Positions 46,754 to 55,938 of a DNA stretch of 64,000 nt are shown in pieces. The notes under the pieces are model-generated. The model made no database searches. It had not been told where the DNA came from and worked only from the letters and a program-made list of their open reading frames with translations. Each line of letters opens with the position of its first letter. Positions within the stretch are counted from its first letter, which is position 1. The position numbers and the translations under genes were made by a program. The DNA is from Prochlorococcus marinus str. MIT 9313. Lineage in GTDB: Bacteria > Cyanobacteriota > Cyanobacteriia > PCC-6307 > Cyanobiaceae. Location of the stretch: positions 1,367,347-1,431,346 of the forward strand of contig NC_005071.1 of assembly GCF_000011485.1 (NCBI RefSeq), given 5' to 3'.

Positions 46754-47653
46754 ATGGTGCAGCTCCGATCTAACCTGCTCACACCAGCGCTTCAACGTGG
46801 CGACGAGGTGGTCACAGTGGCTGCGAGTTCAGCGCTGGATGATGAACAATCACTGCTCGAAGGCCTCAAAGTCCTTGAAGGGTGGGGATTAGTCTGCCGG
46901 CCTCAGCAAGTGAGTGAACGCCGCTGGGGCTACCTAGCGGGCAAAGATGCCAGCCGCCAGCGCGATCTAAATTCTGAGTCCCCTGCTGCTCTGTTGGCTT
47001 GTGCTCGCGGCGGCTGGGGAGCTGCACGTTTACTGGAACACAAGCAAACCTGGCAGCCAGGCTGGCTAATGGGGTTTTCAGATGTCACCGCCCTGCTCTG
47101 GGCACGTCTGGCGGCCGGGTTCGACGGCTGCGTGCATGGCCCCTTACTCACCACACTTGCCAAGGAACCCGCCTGGAGCAAAGCCCGACTGCATGATCTT
47201 CTCTTCGGCAAACACATCCCAGACCTTGAAGGGCAGCCCTGGATGGGTGGAGTAGCTAGCGGGCCCTTGCTGGTCGCCAATCTCACTGTGGCCTCCCATT
47301 TGCTAGGCAGTAGCCATGTACCCGATCTCAAGGGTGCAATCTTGATCCTGGAAGATGTTGAGGAAGCGCCCTATCGCATCGACCGCATGCTGACCCACTG
47401 GCGCCTCGCAGGCCTACTACAAAGACTGGCCGGCCTCGGATTCGGCAGCTTTAAGGGGTGTGAAGCACCTGAACAGATTCCCGGGGATCAAACCTTCCAA
47501 CTTGAGGAAGTATTAAAAGAACGCAGTACTGATCTCGGAATTCCTGTCGTCGGCCAACTCCCAGTTGGTCATTGCTGCGGCAATGCTGCCTTACCACTTG
47601 GACGACAAGCCCAGCTTGACGGCAGCCATGGCCGGCTCAGCTTGCTGTGCTAA
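46754..47653 (+). CDS. S66 family LD-carboxypeptidase (muramoyltetrapeptide type)
   Basis: A 299-residue serine peptidase-like protein. RGGWGAARLL and GFSDVTALLWARL give the family A-R-G-G-x-G and the nucleophilic Ser region; EDVEEAPYRIDRMLTHWRLA holds the conserved Glu-x-x-x-x-x-Y-R-I-D-R motif, and the C-terminal GQLPVGHCCGNAALPLG supplies the catalytic His. It trims D-Ala from L-Ala-D-Glu-mDAP-D-Ala tetrapeptides in murein recycling. Follows the prenyltransferase by 3 bp, so probably co-transcribed. Confidence 0.9.
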   Translation: MVQLRSNLLTPALQRGDEVVTVAASSALDDEQSLLEGLKVLEGWGLVCRPQQVSERRWGYLAGKDASRQRDLNSESPAALLACARGGWGAARLLEHKQTWQPGWLMGFSDVTALLWARLAAGFDGCVHGPLLTTLAKEPAWSKARLHDLLFGKHIPDLEGQPWMGGVASGPLLVANLTVASHLLGSSHVPDLKGAILILEDVEEAPYRIDRMLTHWRLAGLLQRLAGLGFGSFKGCEAPEQIPGDQTFQLEEVLKERSTDLGIPVVGQLPVGHCCGNAALPLGRQAQLDGSHGRLSLLC

Positions 47654-47793
47654 CAGCCTCAACCATCGTTCTCACCAGGCCAAAGTCTTCCTCCCCGTGG
47701 TTTGTCATCTCCGGTATTAATTGATGAGGTTCTGGGTGCTAAGCCCTAATAATCCAATTTGTGCTCTGAATCAATCCGTTTTAAGAAATCTCT

Positions 47794-47976
47794 TTAAGCA
47801 GCTCTGCTTTGGCGATAACGTAATGATCCGCCGGAAATACATTTAAGCTCCTCAAAAATCAGTTCCTCAGGGAAGAATTCGTAGTTAGGTTTAAGGATTG
47901 GTTTGACCAGTTTTTTGCTTGCTTGGACAGACAAGCCATCTCTCGAATCAATGGCTAATGCGTTGACCTCTGTCAC
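47794..47976 (-). CDS. Small peptide with double-glycine leader (bacteriocin-type)
   Basis: A GTG-started 60-codon frame: a 50-residue polar leader, then EELIFEELKCISGG, which resembles the E-L-x-x-I-S/A-G-G cleavage motif of peptides exported by C39-peptidase ABC transporters (bacteriocins, lanthipeptide precursors). The putative core after GG is only SLRYRQSRAA and has no Cys, so it is not a lanthipeptide core as written. No maturase or exporter is near. The leader is longer than simple class II leaders. Function inferred from the motif only; it may also be an ordinary small protein. Confidence 0.5.
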   Translation of the reverse strand: MTEVNALAIDSRDGLSVQASKKLVKPILKPNYEFFPEELIFEELKCISGGSLRYRQSRAA

Positions 47977-48095
47977 ACGCCTCAGTGAGGTTGATCACTC
48001 CGAAATCACTGTGCTTTGAGAAAGATCTCCATCACGCCGAGATGTGCTGCACTGGGATTAAATGCTTAAAAGGTCACTCGTGATCTGGCATATTT

Positions 48096-48293
48096 TTGGT
48101 TGAAGCTATCAGGCCACATCAACTGCAGAAATTGATCTCTCTAGGCCAAGAACAACTTGCCTGGGCTTGGGATGCAAGGCTCAATCAAATACCAGAAGAG
48201 TGGCATCAAGTTGCCATCAAGTTCCTTAGAGCTAATGGTATTGGGAATGGGAATCTTCAGCTCAGCTTTTGCTGGTTAACGAAAGAGATATAG
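48096..48293 (+). CDS. Possible small protein (65 residues)
   Basis: A TTG-started frame with protein-like composition: VEAIRPHQLQKLISLGQEQL, AWAWDARLNQIPEEWHQVAI and an amphipathic end NLQLSFCWLTKEI. It looks helical and might be a fragment of a longer gene. No ribosome-binding site and no family recognised, so it is a low-confidence call. Confidence 0.3.
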   Translation: MVEAIRPHQLQKLISLGQEQLAWAWDARLNQIPEEWHQVAIKFLRANGIGNGNLQLSFCWLTKEI

Positions 48294-48488
48294 ACATTTA
48301 TTAGGGATGAGAAATTAACTGCTTTGAGAATACCAAGGGGCTTAGACCAAGTGCAACACCAAACAACTGAACACCTTGCTGAGTCATGAAAAGTTTTTGT
48401 AGTTTTGATCTGACTCAAGGCAATAAAAGCAAAATTATTGCCAGCCAATCCAATATTGAAGCATCGGCTATTGATCACAAACAGATTC

Positions 48489-49166
48489 CTAGTTTGCTCT
48501 CAGTGCAATCACTGCCTCGGCTACGGTGAGATCAAACGGAGTTGTGACTTTGATATTGGCAGGGCTGGCCTCCAGCACCTGCACCGGCCATCCCAGGCGT
48601 TCATAAAGCGAGGCGTCGTCAGTCACTGTCCAACCCTTGGCCTGAGCCTCAGCATGACCTTGCTTGAGCTGCTCCACAGCAAAGCCCTGCGGAGTCTGGG
48701 CTGCCCATAGTTCCGCACGATCTGGTGTGCCCGTAATGATCCCTTGACCATCAACGCGCTTGATCGTGTCGGTAACCGGAGTTGCCGCAATCACCGCTGC
48801 GCCAGCCACCACCGCCTCAGCACAGCGATTGATCAAAGCCGCTTCAGCTAAACATCTAGCCCCATCATGAATAAGAACATGCTGCGCAACTGAAGGCAAC
48901 GCCTGTAATCCACGCTCTACGGATTCCTGCCTTGTGCTGCCCCCCTCAATCCAAACGACGGGTTTGGCGGCCTCAGCCAACAACTCCATGATCATTGCTC
49001 GGTCCACAGGTTGGCCAACAATGCCAACCCAAGTGATCGAATCGGCTTCCATCACCGCATCAATCGTCCAGGCAAGAACAGGGCGTCCTGCCAGAGGCAA
49101 AAGCAATTTGTTGCGATCCGCTCCCATACGGCTTCCGCTACCTGCAGCGACAATCAACAGATGCAT
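48489..49166 (-). CDS. ispD: 2-C-methyl-D-erythritol 4-phosphate cytidylyltransferase
   Basis: A 225-residue enzyme of the non-mevalonate isoprenoid pathway, transferring CMP to [23 protein letters not shown] (A-A-G-x-G-x-R-M with the substrate Lys), [28 protein letters not shown] and [19 protein letters not shown]-like [13 protein letters not shown] and [14 protein letters not shown] are all present. ATG 49166 matches the family; upstream frame to 49220 is ignored. Divergent from the GT9-like gene (73 bp apart). Confidence 0.95.
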
Positions 49167-49239
49167 ATGCGCCTCCTGCCGCAAGCAGGCTGAAACCTCC
49201 TCCATACAATCAGCTCGCAAGGCCTCTGCCTCTGGATCG

Positions 49240-55083: not shown

Positions 55084-55938
55084 TCAGGCGAGTTTACGGT
55101 TCAACAAAGGACGAATCATCAGGAACAAGCCAACGGTGACCACCATCAACACAGCCAAACATCCATAACCACTCACAGTCCCGTAAGGAGCATCAAGCAG
55201 AACGGCACCAAGATCAAGCGGACCGGCATAGGCAGCTCGTATGGGCTCAATCGCAAAAGTAAGAGGATTTAGAGCCGCAAGCCAGCCAAGCCAATCAGGC
55301 ATAAAAGAAAGCGGCGCCAGAGCCGTGCTCGCAAACAACAAAGGCAAATTGGCCACAAAGATCACAGCAATCAATTCAATGTGACCTGGCAGAGCAAAAG
55401 CCAGGCCAAGGCTCAAGGCAGTGAACGCAAAAACTAGCAACAACAAGGTGAACAACACCAAGACCAGTCCCGAAACACCTGGCCAGCCGTAACCCAGCAA
55501 GGCAGCCGTTGCCATGATCGCCAGGCTCTGCAGAAGACTTAGAGATGTGATGTAGATCACAGAAGCAAGCACGATCGAGCTGCGACTGCGCAGCGGAGCC
55601 ACCAGAAGACGGTTTAAAAAGCCAAATTCACGATCAAACATCACTGGCAATCCAGCATTGAGTGCACCACTGAACGCGGTGAACACAATCACACCAGCCC
55701 CTAAGAACCGCCCGTAGCTCATGCCTCCTGGCAACAAACCATCCGGAGCATTAGAGAACAAAGCACCAAACAACACCAACCAGATCAAGGGCTGAAGGAT
55801 GCCAGCAATCAAGGTCGAAGGGCGTCGCAACAGCTGCAAGAAAAGTCTGCGAGTCAGGGCCAAAGTTTCCTGCACAAGATCAACCAATGGCCCCTGCTCT
55901 GCAGCACGGGTGGTAACAGCGGCAACAGGGCTAGTCAT
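55084..55938 (-). CDS. ABC-2 type transporter permease
   Basis: A 284-residue membrane protein with six hydrophobic helices. LLRRPSTLIAGILQPLIWLV near the N-terminus and the periplasm-side GGMSYGRFLGAGVIVFTAFS are ABC-2 hallmarks, as is the C-terminal FAIEPIRAAYAGPLDLGAVL stretch after ASTALAPLSFMPDWLGWLAA. It forms a drug/polymer-type exporter with the ATPase encoded upstream. Substrate unknown. The pair lies behind ctaA-ctaB. Confidence 0.88.
   Translation of the reverse strand: MTSPVAAVTTRAAEQGPLVDLVQETLALTRRLFLQLLRRPSTLIAGILQPLIWLVLFGALFSNAPDGLLPGGMSYGRFLGAGVIVFTAFSGALNAGLPVMFDREFGFLNRLLVAPLRSRSSIVLASVIYITSLSLLQSLAIMATAALLGYGWPGVSGLVLVLFTLLLLVFAFTALSLGLAFALPGHIELIAVIFVANLPLLFASTALAPLSFMPDWLGWLAALNPLTFAIEPIRAAYAGPLDLGAVLLDAPYGTVSGYGCLAVLMVVTVGLFLMIRPLLNRKLA

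Follow-up and report, generated by a model that had tools for sequence, protein, structure and literature searches.

Does the short open reading frame (ORF) between a peptidase gene and ispD encode a working precursor peptide with a double-glycine (GG) leader, or is it what is left of one? The ORF lies on the minus strand at 47794-47976 of the window, by which we mean the whole 64-kb stretch of DNA analyzed (G000:C1:1367347-1431346; the genome, G000, is one contig of 2,410,873 bases). It translates as MTEVNALAIDSRDGLSVQASKKLVKPILKPNYEFFPEELIFEELKCISGG followed by the core SLRYRQSRAA, with the cleavage point after GG. The frame starts with GTG. An earlier note on this DNA had described a leader ending ...EELKCISGG and a 10-residue core without Cys, and both are borne out by the sequence. 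The stop-to-stop frame is 66 aa long and contains zero methionine codons. As argued below, we consider it likely that the ORF derives from a short GG-leader peptide gene, of which it would be a degenerate and probably dead copy. The features on which the argument draws are the following.

47794-47976, minus strand: ORF under study, which as read consists of promoter DNA, a GG leader and a 10-residue core; probably a decayed gene (60 aa from GTG; leader HMM; frame without ATG)
47797-47826, minus strand: residual core SLRYRQSRAA (cores of intact relatives are about 20-70 residues)
47827-47871, minus strand: leader tail PEELIFEELKCISGG, with L at -12 and -7, I at -4 and GG at -2/-1 (leave-one-out HMM)
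47884-47886, minus strand: AAC where aligned 5´ regions suggest the ATG of the relatives, the alignment being loose here (5´-region alignment)
47932-47934, minus strand: TTG, the sole in-frame alternative start downstream of the promoter-block center, giving a 46-aa product (frame and 5´-region alignment)
47917-48011, minus strand: promoter block of 95 nt, gap-free with 25 GG-leader promoters and containing CCATTGATTCGAGAGATGG at 47936-47954 (matrix search)
47984-47999, minus strand: CRP-type operator AGTGATCAACCTCACT, which deviates at the two outermost of the 10 consensus positions (comparison with the operator consensus)
48018-48293, plus strand: degenerate C-terminus of an IS200-like, TnpAREP-type transposase, residues 180-258 of 261, with one in-frame stop; contains ORF 48096-48293 (family search)
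46754-47653, plus strand: left flank, LD-carboxypeptidase (Peptidase_S66; family search)
48489-49220, minus strand: right flank, ispD (family search)
47634-48492, no strand: segment between the flanks; G002 has unrelated DNA here, and in G003 only the portion to the right of 48134 has a counterpart (genome comparison)

GG leaders cut by C39 exporters have GG (or GA) at the cleavage site and hydrophobic residues at -4, -7 and -12, and the leader of the ORF follows this rule, with I-4, L-7 and L-12 in PEELIFEELKCISGG. Scored with an HMM of 17 paralogous leaders from which the ORF was left out, its leader came out at 16.4 bits (E = 6e-4), ahead of every other stop-to-stop frame in the window (1572 in all); the next frame reached 5.5 bits, and the best score with the same HMM in 2.56 Mb of Markov background was 11.8 bits. 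When each intact leader was left out in turn, 15 of the 17 scored at least 20.3 bits and the remaining two 11.6 and -2.9, with the window leader at 18.2 bits and three Nif11 leader tails at 12.8-14.3 bits. The leader is not a chance motif.

The earlier note had suggested looking for paralogues that share the leader and for a C39-domain ABC exporter, and would have given up the gene had the genome held neither. Both searches were run, and since paralogues and C39 exporters both occur in the genome, the gene does not fall on that ground. A profile of ten short leaders, the window ORF not among them, gave 17 matches in G000 at E<=0.01, while one of eight short GG leaders that included it gave 48 at E<=10, prochlorosins among them. 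Matches to the ten-leader profile were found in 5 of the 119 genomes searched (17 in G000, 8 each in G002, G003 and G082, and 1 in G001). G000 has two C39-peptidase exporters (PF03412) that pass the cut-off, with frame lengths of 738 and 746 aa; elsewhere, there were three matches in G003, five in G002 (one under the cut-off) and two each in G004 and G082, with none in G001. The GG precursors and C39 clusters of MIT9313 have been surveyed, going by the passages of Wang et al., 2011 (PMC3140520) that describe them. For the window ORF itself, 592 pattern matches in genome contigs and 156 in viral contigs yielded zero confirmed orthologues and no relative at E<=1e-3 in either set, phage records queried with the whole intergenic segment gave no match, and the best non-self hit in a protein search of 60 relatives had E = 0.04. 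Weak protein hits in four genomes (G018, G008, G058 and G043) were dropped, their frames containing stops or overlapping an opposite-strand gene that we presume to be Clp-protease-like.

The DNA upstream of the leader carries a second family signal. A search with 316 nt around the ORF gave one non-self match in G000 (66 bp, 77% identical, E = 1e-7), located at 1008 kb directly upstream of a GG-leader gene encoding MTNQELTLDQLQTVAGG.... The 19-mer CCATTGATTCGAGAGATGG occurs exactly in G000 only at the window and at 1008 kb, and with one mismatch in G003 upstream of the GG gene MAQSTALINEITDQELDLATLTAISGG...; none of its other matches, all with three mismatches, precedes such a gene. These sequences are part of a 95-nt block common to short non-Nif11 GG-leader genes of four genomes. 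A promoter matrix was made from 21 non-redundant of 25 blocks, aligned over 95 nt from the operator (L197 and L199 site 4737 were omitted, being on the opposite side of a better placed block, and L069, which has a one-mismatch operator, was added by hand). It scored the window copy at 42.1 bits, against -22.7 for the next best place on either strand of the 64 kb, a gap of 64.8 bits; family members, each left out in turn, scored 24.2 to 110.1 bits.

The operator in this block has the form TGTGA-N6-TCACA, which is the form of a CRP site. With at most one mismatch, it was found at 7 of 9 type B (short-leader) genes of G000, its center 81 to 100 nt before the ATG, and at none of the 26 Nif11 genes and none of the 10 type A short-leader genes of the same genome; among shuffled 220-nt stretches, 0.5% reach this level. 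G000 has 17 exact sites, G003 16, G002 10 and G082 22, and an ATG-started GG-leader gene lies within 230 nt of 6 of the 17, 7 of the 15, 1 of the 8 and 12 of the 22 sites examined in these genomes, respectively. Of the 26 GG genes paired with an operator in this way, 15 have their ATG 98-100 nt beyond its center. By its promoter, the window copy belongs to type B, having both the 95-nt block and the operator with 2 of 10 positions off.

Several further observations concern these promoters and peptide types. Exact operators followed by good promoter-consensus matches also occur at L185 (minus strand; 27 of 36 positions), L188 (plus strand; 26 of 36) and L211 (minus strand); no GG-leader gene follows at L185 or L188, and the one at L211 bears VCGGG. 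An exact TGTGA-N6-TCACA is present at 55546-55561 of the window, inside an ORF that reads like an ABC-2 permease (55084-55938, minus strand), with no promoter block after it. A short hairpin (AGGG...CCCT or GGAGG...CCTCC) is found ~20 nt before the ATG in several type B genes, for example L072, L074, L149 and L196, where translation control is possible. For the 5´ stretch we rejected a hairpin of the Yfr2 type, with a GGAAACA loop, as it is not conserved in the family and has no support from Rfam, which gave nothing at E<=1 over 47600-48600. In the type A short-leader family (NEELSTDELKSVSGG; L065, L071, L074, L078, L081 and L082), which lacks the CRP-type operator, cores often end in EGSGxGxTxxDWxKx. 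In G082, the regions at 517-600 kb and 1416 kb of contig C1 form a peptide island that holds most of the 22 exact operators, many of them with short-leader GG genes, together with a C39 exporter and a Crp-family gene.

The GTG of the 60-aa reading falls ~16 nt past the operator center, inside the block, so that translation from it would turn promoter DNA into the first ~25-30 residues; this GTG would probably lie upstream of the transcription start. No credible translation start was found in the frame, which has no ATG, a GTG in the promoter block and otherwise only the TTG at 47934. The contrast with the relatives in this respect is partly built in, because the operator-paired genes (n=26) were selected as ATG-started ORFs only. 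Decayed copies are common behind intact operators: at a second site of L198 in G082, ATG has become ATA and the frame is broken, and at L216 and L218 in G002 the leader has lost its GG. Promoter divergence alone is no proof of decay, because three intact genes score in a similar range or lower, the window copy being close to or above all of them (L069 of G000, 44.6 bits; L146 of G002, 44.4 bits; L084 of G003, 24.2 bits). Taken as an intact gene, as it was in the earlier note, the ORF finds no support: promoter DNA is read as its N-terminus, the ATG of the relatives is lacking, and its core falls far short of theirs in length.

The alternative that survives best is a live orphan precursor, started at TTG 47934 (or GTG 47976) and exported by a C39 transporter, with the decapeptide SLRYRQSRAA secreted or used as a signal under Crp-type control. 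We regard this as unlikely, even though the frame is open, the GG motif with L-12, L-7 and I-4 is intact, the promoter block is present and the genome has exporters. Two paralogues, at 277 kb and 2234 kb of G000, also favor it, as they have an upstream ATG in frame with the leader with which the window GTG aligns, and for this reason a longer reading of the window ORF is conceivable. We nevertheless rejected the idea that the upstream stretch is an N-terminal peptide extension (M-x-x-I-N-D-V-V-E-E-L..., in frame in these two paralogues), because the G082 relatives and the 1008-kb copy hold in-frame stops in the same stretch while the gap-free spacing from the operator persists. A live gene is further opposed by the missing ATG, the weakened operator, a core far below the length in relatives, the lack of an orthologue in the genomes searched and the frequency of decayed paralogues. 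Decay nevertheless may not be far gone, or selection may persist, given that the window leader is open, free of stops and well above background.

It is very improbable that the ORF is an accident of intergenic DNA that happens to contain a GG-like string. In favor of this reading are the shortness of the ORF and several weak database results: no NCBIfam family matched at E<=10 (HMMER filters may hide weak matches), the CCRG-2 model NF033456 (cut-off 24 bits) was not reached, Pfam gave a sub-threshold Lactococcin match only (13.7 bits against a cut-off of 23.1), and the ORF is missing from the list of the ten-leader (type-B-only) profile at E<=0.01. It is contradicted, however, because the leader and promoter signals are independent and both strong, and lie on the same strand at the right spacing. 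That the ORF is an orphan prochlorosin-like precursor, with a Nif11 leader and lanthionines, is scarcely credible: the genome does have numerous Nif11 GG precursors with transposase remnants of the same kind close by, but the ORF has no Nif11 match, no Cys in its core and the promoter block of the short-leader family.

The region around the ORF, which the earlier note had wrongly called otherwise empty, holds a transposase remnant at 48018-48293 (plus strand). Residues 180-258 of the transposase match 48018-48263 with one stop, and the frame stays open on to 48293; 48096-48293 (plus strand) was therefore rejected as a separate gene, being the transposase C-terminus. The family of 48096-48293 is matched 24 times in G000, 28 times in G003 and 16 times in G002, and its full-length transposase relatives (261 and 264 aa) match Y1_Tnp (PF01797) at 53.5 and 55.2 bits, against a cut-off of 23. 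We take the family to be of the TnpAREP type, a name that comes from a cited title. Of the 24 transposase matches in G000, 16 are found within 700 bp of a GG gene, with the window pair excluded, compared with 0.42 on average for random places, although five of the 53 GG positions came from regions fetched for the purpose, which biases the count towards an association. An association of GG-peptide loci with IS200-like (TnpAREP-type) transposase copies is already in print, going by the passage in PMC10783134 that cites it. Many Nif11 genes (L065, L067, L068, L073, L074 and L118 of G000) likewise have an antisense transposase C-terminal piece ~310-360 bp away, upstream or downstream, and these pieces come in two slightly different versions, LKRLVSSARTR... 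and KRFVQSSRSNRSK.... At L068, identical GG-leader gene sets at G000:C1:1005239-1006525 and 1010068-1011354 lie ~4.83 kb apart and represent a recent tandem duplication.

The GG gene of the window stands head to head with the broken transposase. Its locus and the one at 1008 kb have the same order and spacing and can be aligned over their whole length, GG gene, promoter and transposase piece included, which makes the two loci copies of one module. The window segment is strain-specific among the genomes examined: between the same S66 and ispD flanks, G002 has unrelated DNA with a 194-aa ORF, and in G003 homology to the window extends from ispD through part of the transposase piece to 48134 and then stops. 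The interval between the S66 peptidase gene and ispD differs in each genome compared, and in G003 a TPR-repeat-like gene lies beside ispD.

Together, these observations suggest how such a module might work and how the window copy might have arisen. Intact relatives comprise a fixed promoter block with TGTGA-N6-TCACA, a short 5´ untranslated stretch and an ATG that in most cases follows the operator center by 98-100 nt, the product being a short leader of the M-T-N-N-E-L-T-I-E-Q-L-Q-x-I-x-G-G type followed by a variable core. A Crp-family activator would bind the operator and switch on the gene, and a C39-peptidase ABC exporter would, as is general for GG leaders, cut the precursor after GG and release the core outside. 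The window copy most likely arose by duplication and dispersal of the module, because its order and spacing match those of the intact 1008-kb copy, and then decayed, losing the outer bases of the operator and the ATG and retaining a core of 10 residues. Its loss of function, the route of its dispersal and its regulator are what we infer from these comparisons.

For the regulator, the Crp helix-turn-helix family has five matches in G000, four of them above the cut-off. One member, at G000:2269390, is separated by ~10 kb from the C39 exporter at 2259273. Its G003 relative is ~20 kb away from such an exporter, and in G082 a Crp-family member at 525904 lies ~6 kb from one (531712). The G000:2269390 protein carries the helix SRETASRTLSKL, which resembles the R-E-x-x-x-R of the E. 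coli CRP helix; among the NCBIfam models it matches CRP best, but its 62.2 bits stay far under the cut-off of 266. It is a candidate regulator of the type B promoters. We tentatively propose, with somewhat less than even confidence, that the short-leader GG peptides form a dispersed regulon, controlled by one Crp-family regulator encoded near a C39 exporter through TGTGA-N6-TCACA at a fixed distance, with prochlorosins outside it and the window copy a fading member or, most boldly, the source of a live decapeptide. We found no literature tying Prochlorococcus bacteriocins to the cyclic AMP receptor in a search that covered few subscription papers; by their listings, papers on MIT9313 and the CRP family concern sigma factors and nitrogen responses, and those on double-glycine promoters offered nothing suggestive. 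The novelty of the operator-bearing promoter thus has a thin basis.

By itself, the ORF is probably a minor relic, of note mainly because it illustrates the scattering and loss of GG-peptide genes beside IS200-like transposase debris. More interesting than the ORF is the shared promoter with its CRP-type operator, which marks short-leader peptides in two genera and is absent at the prochlorosin genes examined. If real, this distinction would offer a handle on when and why cells release class-II-bacteriocin-like or signaling peptides.

Three known systems invite comparison. With the prochlorosins, the ProcM-modified lanthipeptides with Nif11 leaders, the ORF has in common a GG leader, many dispersed copies in the genome and TnpAREP-type remnants nearby. 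Prochlorosins differ in having a long Nif11 leader, Cys-bearing cores and no CRP-type operator, whereas the window ORF has neither a Nif11-like leader nor a core Cys for lanthionine rings. The earlier note was thus right about a non-Nif11 leader, as neither TIGR03798 (NCBIfam) nor Pfam Nif11 matches the ORF, and its comparison with prochlorosins holds as far as a GG-leader relative goes, but the actual relatives are a short-leader family with a promoter of its own, seen at none of the 26 Nif11 genes examined. For the lactobin A/cerein 7B class IIb bacteriocins (TIGR03949), the model is reached by two relatives whose leaders resemble that of the window ORF; the window ORF itself does not match it, and its core is not a hydrophobic helix. 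Among six type-B-like precursors searched against NCBIfam, these two (L084 of G003, 24.3 bits; L196 of G082, 27.7 bits; cut-off 21.5) stand beside three that reach the CCRG-2 RiPP model NF033456 (42.3, 38.9 and 29.8 bits; cut-off 24) and one without a match, and one of two type A proteins just reaches CCRG-2 (24.5 bits). The window ORF does not match the CCRG-2 model, lacks an ATG and has a core of 10 residues, but its leader is of the same kind (E-L-x-x-[DE]-[EQ]-L-[KQ]-x-[IV]-x-G-G), and it shares with these type B genes the 95-nt block, the operator and the genome. Judged by sequence, the closest kin of the ORF are thus the short 'NELTIEQLQxIxGG' precursors, several of them CCRG-2, and not the prochlorosins.
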